From a virus: a stretch of DNA of 35,238 nucleotides. The stretch's first letter is position 1. Each line of letters opens with the position of its first letter. Of this stretch, positions 15,445 through 28,845 are shown piece by piece. Made by a program: the position numbers and the translations under genes. The notes under the pieces were generated by a model. The model was given only the letters and a program-made list of their open reading frames with translations, was not told the DNA's origin and searched no databases. The DNA lies in the IMG/VR virus record IMGVR_UViG_3300031758_000267, positions 1-35,238 of that record; one strand, 5' to 3'.

Positions 15445-16104
15445 ATGGGCAAAATATTTTGTAATCAAATTTCTAAACTTGGCATAGAATATAAAGAGAT
15501 TTTTGAAGATATAATTGAAATAGAAAATTTTATATCTAAAGAAGAAATAGACAGCCTTTTTGACCTAATTAAAGAAACTAAAGAAGAAGACTGGACAACT
15601 GCATATATGGATCAAATTAAAAGGTTTGCCTTTCTTAAATATGGAAGAGATGATGTTGACAATCTTGTTGCAGAGGGCAAAGTTGAAATCACTGATAGGT
15701 GGACAGACAAAACTCTTGTAATTGATAAACATCCTATTACTGAAAAGATTCATGAAAAAATTAAAACGATAGTAAAAATGACAGATGAAAATTTTATTTT
15801 TACTGGAGGAGATACTATACAAAGAATGTATGATGGAGTTAAACTTCATGAGCATACAGACCAACATACAGATCCATCCGTACAATATGCCAGCATACTA
15901 TACCTAAATGATGATTATTCTGGCGGAGAATTATTTTTCCCTAACTTAAACATAGACATAAAACCAAAACCAGGTACGCTTTTAATTTTTCCAGGATCAG
16001 ATAAATATAATCACGGAGTAAGGGTTGTAAATAAAGGACCAATAAGGTATGTGATTGTTGGTTTTATAAAGATAAAAGATTTTTATAAAAACAATAAGTT
16101 TTAA
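15445..16104 (+). CDS. 2OG-Fe(II) oxygenase, prolyl-hydroxylase-like
   Basis: 219 residues. HTD (His137, Asp139) within a His-rich stretch, LYLNDDYSGGELFFP, KPKPGTLLIFPG, His190 (YNHGV) and Arg201. All ligands present. Leaderless: TGG-TATTAT (15430-15438), identical to the box at 13761, ends six bases before ATG. Convergent with the next - strand oxygenase, overlapping by 4 bases. Substrate unknown. Confidence 0.88.
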   Translation: MGKIFCNQISKLGIEYKEIFEDIIEIENFISKEEIDSLFDLIKETKEEDWTTAYMDQIKRFAFLKYGRDDVDNLVAEGKVEITDRWTDKTLVIDKHPITEKIHEKIKTIVKMTDENFIFTGGDTIQRMYDGVKLHEHTDQHTDPSVQYASILYLNDDYSGGELFFPNLNIDIKPKPGTLLIFPGSDKYNHGVRVVNKGPIRYVIVGFIKIKDFYKNNKF

Positions 16105-16796
16105 ATATATTTTTGAGGCTCATTGTCTAAAACAATTATATTTTCATTAAGTTTTAATGGATGAAGCCACTTACTTACATTCTCTGGAGTTTTATCTTTT
16201 AATAATTCACAATACTCTTCAGACTTATAATTATAAAATGTTCCTGGATTTTTATCTGCTCTTAAACAGAAATTAGAATATGCAAATCTTGAACCAGAAA
16301 GAACTTTTTTAACTCCATGGCTATAATCTTCTAATGCTCCATGAATAACGAGATCTCCAGGCTGTACGGCAATAGTTATATCTTGGTTTGGATAATAAAC
16401 TTCTCCTCCAGTAAAATCTCCAAAATAAGTAATAACTCCAAATTCTAAAAGACAACAGGTAGACCACACATCTGGAAGAGTTAAGTCTTCGTGATTACCT
16501 TCCCCTGGACTATCACAGTGAGGCAACATTTCAGCACCTTCTTTAAAATGTAAACATGTCAATAGTGGATGAACTACATAGTCTGGTGCTAAAAGTTCTG
16601 AAACCTTTTCCCATACTGGAAAAAGTTCTATAATTTGTGGAGTTGTTCCAAAATTCATTTCTTCAAATGGATGCTTTAATGATTGCTCTTCATCAATTGA
16701 AGCATTTATTTTAGCAACATCTTCTTTGCTAACAAAATTAGGGAAATAGTATATTTTTTCATGCAACTGTTGCAGTCCTGGGGCGCTAAATGTCAT
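16101..16796 (-). CDS. 2OG-Fe(II) oxygenase, prolyl-hydroxylase-like
   Basis: 231 residues from ATG 16796. HCD (His93, Asp95), GDFTGGEVYYPN, QPGDLVIHG, His160 (YSHGV) and Arg170 complete the site; a C-terminal extension of about 55 residues follows. The start is chosen because TGG-TATAAT on the - strand (-10 at 16803-16808) ends six bases before it; an upstream in-frame ATG would lie before that promoter. Divergent from the CDGSH-cupin gene. Confidence 0.85.
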   Translation of the reverse strand: MTFSAPGLQQLHEKIYYFPNFVSKEDVAKINASIDEEQSLKHPFEEMNFGTTPQIIELFPVWEKVSELLAPDYVVHPLLTCLHFKEGAEMLPHCDSPGEGNHEDLTLPDVWSTCCLLEFGVITYFGDFTGGEVYYPNQDITIAVQPGDLVIHGALEDYSHGVKKVLSGSRFAYSNFCLRADKNPGTFYNYKSEEYCELLKDKTPENVSKWLHPLKLNENIIVLDNEPQKYI

Positions 16797-16858
16797 AAAA
16801 TTATTATACCATAAGTTATTAATATCTGAATTTACGCTCAATATGGTACAATTAAAGC

Positions 16859-17623
16859 ATGAAACAGTGCCTTTGTGGAAGATCTAAAACATACCCATAT
16901 TGCGATGAGACACATAAAATAAAAAAAGATATGAACTATAAGTCTGAAGATTTGAATAAAAAAACAGATATTAAATTAAAAATTGAAGAGGCTAATAAAA
17001 CTGGGCAGGTACTATTTTTAAAAGGCTTTATGAAAAAGTCTCCAGACTGGAAAGATTTTGTCGAATTAATAGATCATCAATATAATAATCCTTTAACCAA
17101 TGAAAATACTGAGCAACTATTTAAAGAGAGAGTAAAAAATAAAAATACTCAACCACAATTTGTAGTTAATAACAAAAACATTAACACAAATATTCAACAT
17201 TTCCAAAGTCTTAGTATGGAAATGTGGTTTGTTCGTCAAAATGGTCCAGGTATTGAAAATAAAAATTGGTATCAAAATAGTTTAATTGATGAGTTTTTGT
17301 ATTTTTTTCATAAAGATGGAACAACTACAACACTAAAGTCTTTAATAAATTTTGCAGGAAATGAATTAAATGGCAATATTCATTCAGATTATCAGGATGT
17401 GGTGTCTTGGACATGTGCTGGGGAAATTGAATACAGAATTTATAAAGTTGATAGAAATTTTGAAAGACATGCTATTAGCAATGAGGAATCAAAAAATCTT
17501 GAATATGATTCATACATTATGACTGCTGGAGATGTCATATACATGCCGAAAGGTACATATCATAAAGCAATTGCACATAAGCCACGAGCATCATTAATTT
17601 TGGACTACCCTCACGAAGAATAA
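16859..17623 (+). CDS. CDGSH iron-sulfur domain fused to JmjC/cupin-like oxygenase
   Basis: 254 residues. Residues 4-19 read C-x-C-x2-S-x3-P-x-C-D-x-T-H, the CDGSH [2Fe-2S] motif (Cys4, Cys6, Cys15, His19). After a basic linker, residues about 115-254 form a cupin/JmjC-like domain: HSD (His175, Asp177), AGEIEYRIY, AGDVIYMPKGTYHKA (His235). So a redox cluster is joined to a probable Fe(II) oxygenase. Leaderless TGG-TACAAT box six bases upstream. The C-terminal domain is paralogous to the 20964 product. Target unknown. Confidence 0.75.
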   Translation: MKQCLCGRSKTYPYCDETHKIKKDMNYKSEDLNKKTDIKLKIEEANKTGQVLFLKGFMKKSPDWKDFVELIDHQYNNPLTNENTEQLFKERVKNKNTQPQFVVNNKNINTNIQHFQSLSMEMWFVRQNGPGIENKNWYQNSLIDEFLYFFHKDGTTTTLKSLINFAGNELNGNIHSDYQDVVSWTCAGEIEYRIYKVDRNFERHAISNEESKNLEYDSYIMTAGDVIYMPKGTYHKAIAHKPRASLILDYPHEE

Positions 17624-17626
17624 AAA

Positions 17627-18445
17627 ATGAAAAATATAAACAATTTAAAAATACATGGATTTACAATTAATCCAGTCACACATCCAGATATTTTAAAAAA
17701 TATTATTAGAGGATTAGCAAGTTATTCAGATATGCATAAATGTGACTTTTTAGAAGAAAACAAACCTAGAAAAATTCATAAAAACTATTTAGGAAAACTT
17801 TTAAATATATCAGATGTAATTGAAATTAAAAAAGAAGGTTTTAGCGGGCTTATTGGTCATTGCATTCTTGAAAATGGTTATTTTAATTTAAGAATTTGGA
17901 ATGACGTATATCCATCAGAAATACACTTTAACTTATTTTTAGAAGACGATATTTTAGATGCAGACTTAATAATAGATCATTTATCTGCTCCAGCAGTTCC
18001 AAATGATGGTATCGGAATGTTTGATTATACTTATAGTATAAATAAAGAAATACTTACATCTAATCCATTACAAAAATTTTCAAAATCAGAAAGTTCATAC
18101 TATGTTAACGATCCAATAAGACTAAATGGTGAAGAGTGGGAAGTTACTTTGAATAAATTAGGCCAAACCACTTGTCATTTTTGCGAATCAACACCACATT
18201 ATTGGCTGTTTGTAAAGAATGAAGAAAATTATCATTCAAGGTCTAGTGCTGTAATTGTTTGTAAAGATCACATGAAAATGGGTAGGACAACAGAATTAGG
18301 AAATGCTAATCCAGATTTTATATTTGTCAATCCTATTAATCAAACTAACGAAACATATAATTCAAAAAATATGAAAAAATTTAAAATGCACAGTAGTTTA
18401 AACAAAGAAAACAACACAACAATAACAGAAAACTTGTCAGAATAA
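17627..18445 (+). CDS. SpeD-like fold with C-terminal zinc domain
   Basis: 272 residues. Around residues 30-125 the order 'MHKCD', a GFSGLIG turn, ENGYFNLRIW and a FNLFLED strand parallels S-adenosylmethionine decarboxylase (GxSG, SHxxIHTWP, DxFTCG), but the pyruvoyl-forming Ser is replaced (ENGY), so classic decarboxylation is unlikely. Residues about 183-220 hold CHFC...CKDH, a zinc site like that at 13776. The Asn-rich tail is poorly conserved in character. Follows the CDGSH-cupin gene by three bases, so co-expressed. The SpeD link is tentative. Confidence 0.5.
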   Translation: MKNINNLKIHGFTINPVTHPDILKNIIRGLASYSDMHKCDFLEENKPRKIHKNYLGKLLNISDVIEIKKEGFSGLIGHCILENGYFNLRIWNDVYPSEIHFNLFLEDDILDADLIIDHLSAPAVPNDGIGMFDYTYSINKEILTSNPLQKFSKSESSYYVNDPIRLNGEEWEVTLNKLGQTTCHFCESTPHYWLFVKNEENYHSRSSAVIVCKDHMKMGRTTELGNANPDFIFVNPINQTNETYNSKNMKKFKMHSSLNKENNTTITENLSE

Positions 18446-18499: not shown

Positions 18500-18667
18500 A
18501 TGAAAAAAACAAACAATAAAGTATCCCAACACAAGGCAAAACGTTATGCAAAAAATAAAAAAAGAATGAAAGACAAGCCGTATCTTTCTAAGTTTGAGCG
18601 ACAACAGTTAGCAAAGCGAGCAGAAATCTTAGGAGCATCTTTAAGTGTTCTCAGAAACAATGCTTGA
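18500..18667 (+). CDS. Small very basic protein, leaderless
   Basis: 55 residues, 18 or more Lys/Arg (HKAKRYAKNKKRMKDKP), probably nucleic-acid binding. TGA-TATCAT (18485-18493) ends six bases before this ATG; another ATG four bases earlier runs into a stop after seven codons. Overlaps the next gene by 23 bases. Confidence 0.6.
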   Translation: MKKTNNKVSQHKAKRYAKNKKRMKDKPYLSKFERQQLAKRAEILGASLSVLRNNA

Positions 18668-18923
18668 TCATATAACTAGAGTTCTGTTTTCATGGGAAAG
18701 ACTTCGTCTTTTTATTTTTGCTGAAGTTGATTGGTATAACTCGATTACTCGCACATTAAATGATCCAGAGGCTATGAAAACTGCATCAGCAATATGGTGT
18801 GAACAAGATGGTTGGCGTGGATGGAATATAAAAGAAAATGGATCATACTATTTTCATGATATTCCAGAAAAAGGTTTATCAGATATTTTTGATATAATTT
18901 ATTACAAAGAAAAGGAGATGTAA
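18645..18923 (+). CDS. Hypothetical phage protein
   Basis: 92 residues. GTG start chosen because AGGAG (18631-18635) lies nine bases upstream; ATG 18660 is the alternative. Aromatic-rich (SWERLRLFIFAEVDWY, WRGWNI). No family recognised. Heads a run of three closely spaced genes. Confidence 0.65.
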   Translation: MFSETMLDHITRVLFSWERLRLFIFAEVDWYNSITRTLNDPEAMKTASAIWCEQDGWRGWNIKENGSYYFHDIPEKGLSDIFDIIYYKEKEM

Positions 18924-18924
18924 T

Positions 18925-19116
18925 ATGGCATGCAGTTGTGGTTTTTCAACAGACTATCCAAATTGCAATGGAACACATAAAATAGTAAAGTCGGTAAAAG
19001 ACAAGATAATTCAAGAAGTAGAAAAAATACCACTTGAAAGTAATGGTGCACAATTAAATGCGTTAGGTATGAGAATGCTTGTAGTCGATGTGATTAAAAA
19101 GGTAAAAGGTGTCTAA
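18925..19116 (+). CDS. CDGSH-type iron-sulfur mini-protein
   Basis: 63 residues. Cys3, Cys5, Cys14 and His18 in C-x-C-x2-S-x3-P-x-C-N-G-T-H match the CDGSH [2Fe-2S] motif except Asp to Asn. The remainder is an amphipathic helix. GGAG ribosome site. Same motif as the N-terminus of the 16859 product, so two CDGSH modules occur within 2.3 kb. Probably an electron-transfer or redox-sensing partner; the partner is unknown. Confidence 0.65.
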   Translation: MACSCGFSTDYPNCNGTHKIVKSVKDKIIQEVEKIPLESNGAQLNALGMRMLVVDVIKKVKGV

Positions 19117-19411
19117 CTGGGTCTGCCCCTGTAATGGCTGTAAAAAGGCACAGAAGGTCATTATAGACCAGATCATTGAAGAGTATAGGTCTTGTCCCAA
19201 CATTGTAGAGTCTGAAGAAAGATTGTTTTGTTATACATGGTGGAGACATGATGATTGTGAAAGATTGAGAAGTTTATTATATAAGATTACAAAGAAAGAT
19301 TTGTATACCCTGCCAGAAATGCGTCCTACTGTTAAAGAGGCATTAGAAGAAATGATTAATGATCCTAAAACTGCTGAGATATTACGAAGGCTTGAAGACG
19401 ACGGTATTTGA
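19109..19411 (+). CDS. Hypothetical phage protein with N-terminal Cys cluster
   Basis: 100 residues, GTG start overlapping the preceding gene by 8 bases. CPCNGC near residues 6-11 plus later Cys could bind metal. C-terminal two-thirds helical. Its last codons lie in the -35 box of the tRNA promoter. Function unknown. Confidence 0.68.
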   Translation: MSNWVCPCNGCKKAQKVIIDQIIEEYRSCPNIVESEERLFCYTWWRHDDCERLRSLLYKITKKDLYTLPEMRPTVKEALEEMINDPKTAEILRRLEDDGI

Positions 19412-19785: not shown

Positions 19786-20358
19786 ATGAAAACAATTGGA
19801 TATAAATTAAATCCGTTTCGCATTGTTGGTGTAAAGCCAGGAAGACTAGATGGTGCTGATGATGTTTTTGAAACATTAAACGAGAAATGGTTTCCAGGAA
19901 AATGGAAAGTTCTTGTGTATTACCCTAAAGATTTTACCTTTGTGTGTCCCACAGAAATTGTTGCTTATGACAAACTTGTAAATGATTTTAATGATCGTGA
20001 TGCAGTATTACTGACAGGATCAACAGATAATGAATTCTGTAAGGTTGCGTGGCGCAATGCCCATGAAGATCTGAAGAAAACCAACTCGTGGTCTTTTGCT
20101 GACCAGGTTCGCAATTGGCAATATAATGGAGATGATGAAGGGTACACTGGTTTAGCAGAACAACTTGGAGTTCTCAATGAAGACGGAGTTGCCCTTCGTG
20201 CAACCTTTATTATTGATCCAGACAATATTATTCAGCATGTTACAGTCAACAATCTAAATGTTGGTCGTAGTCCTGAAGAAACATTGCGTATTCTTGATGC
20301 TCTTCAAACAGGAGAACTCTGTGCTTGCAATAGAAGTCTCGGTGGAGAAACCTTGTGA
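19786..20358 (+). CDS. ahpC: Alkyl hydroperoxide reductase AhpC (peroxiredoxin)
   Basis: 190 residues, normal length. Peroxidatic Cys54 in DFTFVCPTEI; resolving-type cysteines Cys179 and Cys181 in ELCACN near the C-terminus, the three-cysteine arrangement of mycobacterial AhpC. ATFIIDPDN is the family's conserved strand. Reduces peroxides and probably peroxynitrite in the cytosol. The stop overlaps the ahpD GTG start (GTGA), so the pair is one operon. Ribosome site AGAAAGAG. Unusual cargo for a phage. Confidence 0.93.
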   Translation: MKTIGYKLNPFRIVGVKPGRLDGADDVFETLNEKWFPGKWKVLVYYPKDFTFVCPTEIVAYDKLVNDFNDRDAVLLTGSTDNEFCKVAWRNAHEDLKKTNSWSFADQVRNWQYNGDDEGYTGLAEQLGVLNEDGVALRATFIIDPDNIIQHVTVNNLNVGRSPEETLRILDALQTGELCACNRSLGGETL

Positions 20359-20867
20359 GTTGGGTAGATGAAGTAAAGGAACTTGTTCCTGAGTATGCTA
20401 AAGACATTAAGTTAAATCTTGATGCTGTGATTAATAGAAGTAGTTTTGATTACGATTACTCTTCATCCCTCGCACTTGCAGCAGCCCTTGCAACAGGTAA
20501 TCAGGACATTGTCGCTATGGTTTCTGCTGGTGTTACAGATGAGGTAGAAAAAAATGCAGCCTTTACTGCAGCAGCATTGATGGCACAAAATAATGTTTGG
20601 TATCCATACACTGAGATGGCTGATGATCCCAATTTAACTGGACTACCTGCACAACTTAGAATGAATGCTATTACATCTCATGGCGGTACAACAAAAGATA
20701 AGTTTGAAGCATATGCATTAGTAGCATCAATTATCGGCAAGTGTCATTTCTGCGTTAAGGCTCATTACGAAACCTTAAAAAGGGAAGGGTATACAACCGA
20801 ACAACTTCGTGATATTGGAAGAATTGCTGCAACGATTAATGCTATTGCTAAAGTCGTAGTAGCGTGA
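20355..20867 (+). CDS. ahpD: AhpD-type alkylhydroperoxidase
   Basis: 170 residues. Glu118, Cys130, Cys133 and His137 match the AhpD active site in position. The CxxC is CHFC; in mycobacterial AhpD it is CSHC, so the second in-loop residue (position 132) is Phe rather than His, with His moved to 131. AhpD reduces AhpC using dihydrolipoamide-linked enzymes of the host. GTG start, 4-base overlap with ahpC. tRNA-Thr begins 7 bases after its stop. Confidence 0.92.
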   Translation: MSWVDEVKELVPEYAKDIKLNLDAVINRSSFDYDYSSSLALAAALATGNQDIVAMVSAGVTDEVEKNAAFTAAALMAQNNVWYPYTEMADDPNLTGLPAQLRMNAITSHGGTTKDKFEAYALVASIIGKCHFCVKAHYETLKREGYTTEQLRDIGRIAATINAIAKVVVA

Positions 20868-20945: not shown

Positions 20946-20963
20946 CTGGTGTATAATAATATT

Positions 20964-21557
20964 ATGATTACAGAGTATTTAACAAAAATAAAAAATGATA
21001 TTAATCAAAGTAGAAAAACAAACACCTTACTTCATATTAAAAATTTTTATAATAATGTTCCAAAATGGACAAACATAATTAACAATATAAATTATAAATA
21101 CAATTCAGGAAAAGAATCAACTCTTGTTGACGGTAGATACTTAATCAGACTTAATGAAAGCAAAGATGTTTTAGCATACAGTCCTCTTGATTTACAAATA
21201 ATGCATGCTGTTTCATATAAAAATGATAATTATAGGTTAAACTTACTATTTGAAAATAACAATATTATTTCTGAACTATCCTATATTTGTGGACATAATT
21301 TTCCAAATATAAAAACAATAGTAACTTTTGCAATTGGAGACAATGAATACAGTATACACAAAGATGATCATGATGTAGTACTTTTGCAGTGCGAAGGTAC
21401 TTTAGAATGGAGAATATATGACTCATTTGAAACAGAAGATTATTTATCATATATTATAAAACCTGGAGATTTAGTTTTTGCTCCCAGAGGAATTATCCAT
21501 AAAGCAGTAGTGACGGAGCCTAGGGCTACAATTATTATGGATCATAACTATGAATAA
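20964..21557 (+). CDS. JmjC/cupin-like oxygenase
   Basis: 197 residues from ATG 20964. HKD (His132, Asp134), LQCEGTLEWRIYD, KPGDLVFAPRGIIHKA (His179) and EPRATIIMD correspond block by block to the C-terminal domain of the CDGSH fusion at 16859. No iron-sulfur motif here. Start fixed by TATAAT (20952-20957) six bases upstream; the GTG at 20949 in the same frame would lie upstream of the predicted transcript start. Probably an Fe(II)/2-oxoglutarate hydroxylase. Confidence 0.7.
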   Translation: MITEYLTKIKNDINQSRKTNTLLHIKNFYNNVPKWTNIINNINYKYNSGKESTLVDGRYLIRLNESKDVLAYSPLDLQIMHAVSYKNDNYRLNLLFENNNIISELSYICGHNFPNIKTIVTFAIGDNEYSIHKDDHDVVLLQCEGTLEWRIYDSFETEDYLSYIIKPGDLVFAPRGIIHKAVVTEPRATIIMDHNYE

Positions 21558-25809: not shown

Positions 25810-27231
25810 TTATTGTATCACATTACTGTTGTAGATGCTTTGCCATTTTTTTATGTCGTTTTTATCATTAAGCAATGGTTGACCTTTTATATTTAAACTT
25901 GTATTTAATAATACTGGAACTCCTGTAATGGCATACCAATTGGATAGTACTTCATACAGTCCTGTGTGCTGTTCTTTATTTACCGTCTGCACTCTTGATG
26001 TACCATCTTTATGAACCACAGATGGTATGCGATCTGCCTGCAAACATTTTACTGCATATTGCATATATGGAGAAGAAAATTTCATATCAAACCATTTATC
26101 AGCATGCTCTTCCATAACGACTGGAGCAAAAGGTCTAAATAATTCTCTTTTTTTAATAAGATTGACCTTGTCTTTTATAAATGGATCTCTTGGATCAGCA
26201 AGAATAGATCTATTGCCCAAGGCCCTTGGACCATATTCTGCTCTTCCTGTTGCTACTGCTGCAATTTTATCTCTAATCAAACTAGTAATAATTTCTTTTA
26301 CTGGATATTCCCCGCCTAAATCATAGCCAAGATATGGGCCTTGCCAATTTAAATGTTTTCCATAAAGTGCTGCTGCTGCGCCAAGGGATGATCCTGCATC
26401 ACCTGGATTAGGCATGATCCAGACATCATCAAACATTTTCCAAAGCATGGTATTGGCAGAACAGTTTAAGGCACATCCACCCATAAACACAAGATTGCGC
26501 TTTCCTGTAAGTTTTTGTGCCATTGACATAAAATTTACTAATCTATTTTCATATACCTTTTGTACTGCTGCTGCAATATCAAATTTATCTTGCTCAGTAA
26601 TAGGCATATTCCAATCTAAAATTCCTTGATGAAAGTTGTATTTTTGTTTTTGTAAATCTGGAAAATATTCATTTACTTTAAGAAAATATTTTGCCCAATC
26701 TCCATATGCAGCCATACCCATAAATATGTATTCTTCTTCATTGGGCTTTAGACCCACTAATTGCGTGAATGCTGAATAAAATAATCCAAAACTAAATGGA
26801 TAATTTTTTTTATGAACAGATTTTATATTTGAACCTTCACCTATCCAAATGCTTGAGGTGTTATACTCTCCAATTGCGTCTAGTACAACTATAACTGCAT
26901 CATTGAACTTACTTGTATAGTATCCAGCACATGCGTGGGAGTAATGATGATTAAAGTGTTTAACTGGTAGATCAATTGGAATATTTGGCTTCCAGTCTGC
27001 AGCCCCTCCTCTTAAAAATATGCGAGATCTTTTTAATTGAGGCTGTTCGTAATATGCTATATGTGTTGGTGTTCCATAATTAAACATATCTTTATATATG
27101 TTTTCATTATTGTACCAATCATTTTTCTTCTTGCTATACCTTTCAGCGTGGGCAGCAAAAAGTATATCTCCATCTTTTATTAAAGATACTGATGCATCAT
27201 GAGATGTTTCATTAATTCCAAGAATGATCAT
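25810..27231 (-). CDS. NodU/CmcH/TobZ-family carbamoyltransferase
   Basis: 473 residues (family usually about 550-600, C-terminus shorter here). N-terminal domain: GINETSHDAS, HFNHHYSHA (His95, His99 region), LDAIGEY, GMAAYG, GGCALNC; C-terminal domain: GRAEYGPRALGNRSILADPR, LFRPFAPVV, HKDGTSRVQTV, PVLLNTSLN. These motifs bind carbamoyl phosphate/ATP and transfer carbamoyl to a hydroxyl group. In phages such enzymes are known in DNA-base hypermodification; sugars are the alternative target. GAAGG ribosome site nine bases upstream. Confidence 0.9.
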   Translation of the reverse strand: MIILGINETSHDASVSLIKDGDILFAAHAERYSKKKNDWYNNENIYKDMFNYGTPTHIAYYEQPQLKRSRIFLRGGAADWKPNIPIDLPVKHFNHHYSHACAGYYTSKFNDAVIVVLDAIGEYNTSSIWIGEGSNIKSVHKKNYPFSFGLFYSAFTQLVGLKPNEEEYIFMGMAAYGDWAKYFLKVNEYFPDLQKQKYNFHQGILDWNMPITEQDKFDIAAAVQKVYENRLVNFMSMAQKLTGKRNLVFMGGCALNCSANTMLWKMFDDVWIMPNPGDAGSSLGAAAALYGKHLNWQGPYLGYDLGGEYPVKEIITSLIRDKIAAVATGRAEYGPRALGNRSILADPRDPFIKDKVNLIKKRELFRPFAPVVMEEHADKWFDMKFSSPYMQYAVKCLQADRIPSVVHKDGTSRVQTVNKEQHTGLYEVLSNWYAITGVPVLLNTSLNIKGQPLLNDKNDIKKWQSIYNSNVIQ

Positions 27232-28563: not shown

Positions 28564-28845
28564 CTACTCCATTGTAAGAGACTGCCATGTTGTTCCCCAG
28601 TCACCCTTTGTTTTGTGGCTAGAAAATTCTTTCGATATTTCTCCACCCTCTAAGTATACCCCACCCCAAACTCCCCATTCTTTACCAGAAATTCCAACAG
28701 AGAAACATTCTTTTCTAACTGGACACTTAGAACATAATAGGTCTACAGCAGGCCTTAGAAGTTCGTCCTCTTCATATTTATCAAAAAAAACATTTGTGTC
28801 ATAATTTAGGCATGAAGCATTGTCTTTCCACTCATACTTATTCAT
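28564..28845 (-). CDS. WhiB-family iron-sulfur regulator
   Basis: 93 residues. Cys12, then Cys38-x2-Cys41-x5-Cys47 and GVWGGVYL give the complete Wbl signature ([4Fe-4S] ligands and the beta-turn). WhiB proteins are confined to Actinobacteria and their phages; they act as redox-responsive transcription factors with the primary sigma factor, and phage copies can override host Wbl control. It might regulate the oxygenase and redox genes here, which is inference. Confidence 0.93.
   Translation of the reverse strand: MNKYEWKDNASCLNYDTNVFFDKYEEDELLRPAVDLLCSKCPVRKECFSVGISGKEWGVWGGVYLEGGEISKEFSSHKTKGDWGTTWQSLTME

Follow-up and report, generated by a model that had tools for sequence, protein, structure and literature searches.

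All CDGSH proteins of solved structure share a 17-residue module, an N-terminal strand, a P motif, and pairing of the domains (Lin et al. 2011, PMC3174974), and within the module, D14, S7, P11, and S/T16 support the [2Fe-2S] loop (PMC3174974). Fusions of the domain are already on record: in CISD types 5 and 7, CDGSH is joined to the FMN-binding domain of glutamate synthase and to DUF1271 (PMC3174974). A literature search linking CDGSH with phages or oxygenases found nothing relevant, and CDGSH goes unmentioned in a published study of phage 2OG oxygenases.

The window analyzed here is the whole 35,238-nucleotide stretch (positions 1 to 35,238) of IMG/VR record IMGVR_UViG_3300031758_000267, in which a CDGSH-type loop is fused to a JmjC oxygenase, as follows.

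16859..17623, plus strand: mini-CDGSH-JmjC fusion ORF, 254 amino acids, ATG start (ORF translation and Pfam).
16868..16915, plus strand: mini-CDGSH module, residues 4-19 (motif scan, Pfam, and PDB profile match).
16964..17620, plus strand: JmjC oxygenase domain, residues 36-254 (Pfam, alignment, model, and fold match).
17381-17383, plus strand: H175, in the HxD of the JmjC domain.
17387-17389, plus strand: D177, in the HxD of the JmjC domain.
17561-17563, plus strand: H235, distal His of the JmjC domain.
17585-17587, plus strand: R243, Arg of PRAS in the JmjC domain.

The fusion protein begins with MKQCLCGRSKTYPYCDETHK, followed by the JmjC domain, and the motif that the original prediction placed at its extreme N terminus, CxCx2Sx3PxCDxTH, is present there exactly so, at residues 4-19 (CLCGRSKTYPYCDETH; C4, C6, S9, P13, C15, D16, T18, and H19). 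Motifs of this type occur twice in the window, against none expected from dinucleotide shuffles of the window. The predicted metal ligands are C4, C6, C15, and H19 (3Cys-1His), corresponding to C2, C4, C13, and H17 of the 17-residue loop, and their spacing is that of the CDGSH proteins mitoNEET/CISD1, CISD2, CISD3, and bacterial MmCISD (3tbn; PF09360). The supporting residues S7, P11, D14, and S/T16 are likewise retained (S9, P13, D16, and T18 in the window), and residues 3-24 match 3tbn and mitoNEET in PDB profile comparison. The phage loop nevertheless departs from these proteins in that the universal G15 is replaced by Glu17 in the window (and is Gly, Asn, or Glu in relatives), that the N-terminal strand is absent, with the motif beginning at residue 4 and Gln at the hydrophobic Phi1 position, that the GP-Phi-x-Phi lid-proline P motif is missing near the loop, and that phage forms include stand-alone proteins of about 40 amino acids and accompany Fe(II) oxygenases, either in one polypeptide or as a neighboring gene. 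The zf-CDGSH match (PF09360; 27.7 or 31.6 bits, straddling the cutoff of 29.5) covers just positions 29 or 32 to 48 of the 48-position profile. An unannotated upstream extension carrying the missing strand is ruled out by an in-frame TAA at 16853-16855, two codons 5' of the ATG, so that nothing is encoded ahead of the motif.

Because it has neither the N-terminal strand nor the P motif and its Gly is replaced, we class the phage form as a cluster-binding loop, not as a CDGSH domain; judged from its sequence, the N terminus of the fusion is the 17-residue cluster-binding loop of CDGSH with the rest of the domain absent. The fusion to an oxygenase originally predicted is therefore real, but what is fused is a loop without the dimerizing beta-sandwich and not a complete CDGSH domain. 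CISD types 5 and 7 likewise join CDGSH to another domain, but theirs are full CDGSH domains with different partners. A SEC-C zinc motif, in which the spacings of the first three Cys would fit the loop, was rejected, as Asp follows the third Cys and Pfam gave no SEC-C match. An assembly artifact as the source of the fusion was also rejected, since the same architecture appears in contigs of many samples.

The predicted Fe(II) oxygenase domain with HxD and a distal His is borne out: JmjC_2 (PF08007) matches the C-terminal part at 30.6 against a cutoff of 22, and H175, D177, H235, and R243 are conserved across homologues, with the HxD, the distal His, and the PR motif present in most. R243, in PRAS and kept in most homologues, is a candidate basic residue for 2OG. 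The HxD...H triad and the double-stranded beta-helix of JmjC 2OG-Fe(II) hydroxylases are present in sequence and model. Structure prediction, originally proposed as a check, gave a divided answer: AlphaFold with three input sequences reached a pLDDT of 45 for the fusion protein, and with 21 sequences it returned a confident JmjC core (pLDDT exceeding 90 over large parts) but a low-confidence loop (about 50, modeled without metal). The modeled domain matches the folds of YcfD, MINA53, NO66, and JMJD5, and MINA53 is also a weak profile match (E = 0.016). The covalent partner of the window module is thus a ROX/JMJD5-like JmjC protein by model and profile, predicted to be a hydroxylase. It shares the JmjC_2 profile, the HxD...H triad, and the fold with the JmjC ribosomal oxygenases (YcfD, MINA53, and NO66) and JMJD5, but the phage enzyme is short and carries the N-terminal mini-CDGSH, and its close relatives within this set come from uncultured phages only. 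The loop is absent from a JmjC paralogue elsewhere in the window and from about ten further phage homologues of the domain; since this paralogue and most relatives are without it, we regard the CDGSH part as an add-on to the JmjC domain.

Around the fusion, the window contains the following features.

16101..16841, minus strand: divergent 2OG-Fe(II) oxygenase-like ORF without the module, a homologue of the group E oxygenases and of operon gene W (both below).
17627..18445, plus strand: u3, an ORF encountered again beside W and its module in further phages.
18925..19116, plus strand: second, stand-alone mini-CDGSH protein of the window, 63 amino acids, with Asn for the motif Asp.
20949..21557, plus strand: JmjC paralogue without the module, 28% identical to residues 36-253 of the fusion.
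28564-28845: WhiB-like gene (WhiB match at 28657-28830).

The divergent ORF likely has its true start at the ATG ending at 16796, and the intergenic region between it and the fusion (16797-16858) holds two hexamers, a -10-like TACAAT (16847..16852, plus strand, 6 nt 5' of the fusion ATG) and a minus-strand TATAAT (16803-16808, 6 nt 5' of the divergent ATG), which would make possible leaderless promoters. Divergent W and downstream u3 flank the module in the window and likewise in two other loci (L017 and L031); u3 had no family match in profile searches. The stand-alone protein, with the motif CSCGFSTDYPNCNGTH, lies between ORFs at 18645-18923 (upstream) and 19109-19411 (downstream, with a CPCNGC motif), a neighborhood conserved in many phages. 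About eight oxygenase ORFs are found in the window, which also encodes a NodU/CmcH-like carbamoyltransferase (phrog_1601; 25810-27231) and an AhpC peroxiredoxin followed by an AhpD-like gene (19786-20867), both of which some 15 further loci also carry close to a mini-CDGSH gene. Because WhiB occurs in the window and in 18 of the 22 records tested (among controls, positive in Corynebacterium alone), the hosts of these uncultured phages are probably actinobacteria. The company of WhiB, AhpC, and AhpD would suit a redox or oxygen sensor, in which the state of the cluster gates the attached hydroxylase, but stand-alone copies and interchangeable partners argue against the gating of one specific enzyme, and we consider this reading very improbable.

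Pattern scans of IMG/VR gathered module copies in three forms: a stand-alone protein of about 40 amino acids (QCxCGRS type), a stand-alone protein of about 60 amino acids with CNGTH, to which the window ORF at 18925-19116 belongs, and fusions. The 27 non-redundant fusion proteins (below 90% identity), with the module at the N or C terminus, cluster at 38% identity into seven oxygenase groups, JmjC and 2OG-Fe(II); two further motif-bearing ORFs of over 100 amino acids (L081 and L110) fall outside the fusion class. By Pfam, zf-CDGSH is found in all 27, 2OG-FeII_Oxy_3 in 16, and JmjC_2 in 2, and the remaining 9, tagged at the C terminus, align with 2OG oxygenases in profile comparison (99.1% probability, E = 1.8e-18). 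The superfamily of the phage 2OG-Fe(II) oxygenases phrog_61 and phrog_2297 takes in fusion groups B, C, D, F, G, and H, which are set apart by the added module or a neighboring module gene. Oxygenases make up 7 of the 8 module-bearing clusters; in these loci as a whole, they account for 53 of 232 clusters. In group E loci (L058, L125, and others), an extra conserved Cys lies four residues ahead of the loop (FCKKKCICG).

The cultured-phage collection yielded, at the thresholds used, neither a module-encoding record nor an instance of the mini-CDGSH plus JmjC architecture; the impression that this architecture is unfamiliar from phages stands for that collection, and in the uncultured phages of IMG/VR the loop recurs with several oxygenase groups. 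A pattern scan of bacterial genomes returned 21 CDGSH proteins, all full-length. The association of the module with Fe(II) oxygenases, whether fused or as a separate gene, is well supported as recurrent across several unrelated groups.

A single CDGSH match is present in 28 of 32 records, at least three PF13640 oxygenases in 29 of 32, and record G024, whose module stands alone, gives no PF13640 match. That one module is commonly found alongside several oxygenases would be expected of a labile store or chaperone loading iron into oxygenases when many are made together, and both transfer and repair of clusters have been ascribed to mitoNEET (PMC9737848). Such delivery is nonetheless quite improbable, in that cluster transfer supplies [2Fe-2S] to apo-Fe-S proteins, whereas the oxygenases need mononuclear Fe(II). 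We know of no case of cluster transfer to a mononuclear Fe(II) site.

In a conserved operon of several oxygenases, with the layout Z-Z-u2-u1-X-slot-...-B-Y, the module occupies one slot, where it is free in L004, L018, and L022 and joined to B in L007, to C in L015, to D in L072, and to F in L126. In L004, the free module gene overlaps an oxygenase gene by 4 bp, and this oxygenase is 80% identical to the fusion partner in L007; the two loci are split and joined forms of a single gene pair. In most mapped loci, the operon also includes a gene for DUF6065 and another related to it (L022 3565-5000 and equivalents). Since nearly all neighbors in the operon are oxygenases, groups B, C, D, and F cannot serve as separate lines of proof for a link, and adjacency may explain their choice of partner. 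These four N-terminal groups from one slot, together with the lack of the module in some relatives, speak for hitch-hiking, in which a small gene in a dense oxygenase cluster is joined to the next gene by loss of a stop codon and has no functional link to it. Against this, fusions outside the slot (JmjC group A and groups G and H) or with the module at the opposite end (C-terminal group E) are again to oxygenases, and the ligands are intact in all module-bearing B loci and in all 40 group E proteins, where the tail was recovered whole by a profile that itself contained it. Hitch-hiking appears improbable.

For a sample free of bias from the motif, we used the B oxygenase domain alone as query, which yielded 70 readable loci: 21 are fused, 32 are unfused with a module no more than about 2.5 kb away, and in the other 17 none was seen, several of these last being cut by contig ends. 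None of the 21 fused loci has a second module copy nearby, and a full search of 15 records without a nearby module found no modules. As such B-oxygenase records are entirely without it, the module is dispensable, and the oxygenases can work alone. All 63 four-ligand matches in the sample keep C2, C4, S7, P11, C13, D14, S/T16, and H17, with Q1, G5, and R6 likewise unchanged in every one. The module occurs there in 28 distinct DNA versions with synonymous codon changes (the anchor used to collect the versions forced S7, P11, and S/T16 and left D14 and each single ligand free), which shows that the ligands and supporting residues are under selection.

This conservation bears on the identity of the metal. 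If the loop were a zinc knuckle or docking tag, it would bind Zn(II) and bring the oxygenases to some partner or substrate that they have in common, without redox chemistry; the 3Cys-1His spacing suits zinc as well, the loop is too short for the normal CDGSH fold and has low pLDDT without metal, and it is found at either terminus and on different folds. A plain zinc knuckle, however, would have no need of D14, S7, P11, and S/T16, which, like the ligands, are invariant across all 63 matches, and a zinc tag seems rather unlikely. Because these residues are kept, we favor [2Fe-2S] over zinc, and the module probably binds such a cluster.

We propose, tentatively, that the stripped CDGSH module is a detachable [2Fe-2S] accessory to the phage's set of Fe(II) oxygenases, which would act in trans when it stands alone and in cis when fused, returning oxidized Fe(III) to Fe(II) so that the oxygenases stay active, as a bacterial stand-in for ascorbate. 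We infer re-reduction of the iron because a CDGSH protein passes flavin electrons, mitoNEET catalyzing electron transfer from FMNH2 (Wang 2017, as cited in PMC9737848), and because 2OG oxygenases use ascorbate, a cofactor of 2OG dioxygenases (PMC4261134). An electron carrier would also fit the recurrent association with oxygenases. Several points count against the proposal: coupled turnover of 2OG oxygenases runs without external electrons, the N-terminal strand and P motif needed by solved CDGSH domains are lacking, the loop has a pLDDT of about 50, no module was seen near 17 of the 70 B oxygenases, most JmjC relatives are without it, adjacency may account for the B, C, D, and F fusions, and G024 pairs a module with no PF13640 match. 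The wider proposal, in which a NEET loop without beta-sandwich or pairing would be a transferable [2Fe-2S] electron-donor cassette reactivating different Fe(II) oxygenase families in cis or in trans as an encoded ascorbate replacement, is rather unlikely.

As to substrates, collagen-like proteins are encoded in 35 of 189 loci (L004 618-1919 and 34 others), many adjoining the oxygenase operon. Action of the oxygenases on a collagen-like tail fiber was set aside for the window, which has no collagen-like ORF, and such proteins remain a lead, as possible hydroxylation substrates, for the other loci.

Phages carry 2OG oxygenases in very large numbers, and a small partner that switches between free and fused forms offers a direct handle on how bacterial and viral 2OG oxygenases stay reduced without ascorbate. 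Should the loop bind zinc, annotation could be led astray by a well-known iron-sulfur signature; if the [2Fe-2S] reading is true, the CDGSH loop would function in the absence of a dimer scaffold regarded as obligatory (PMC3174974).
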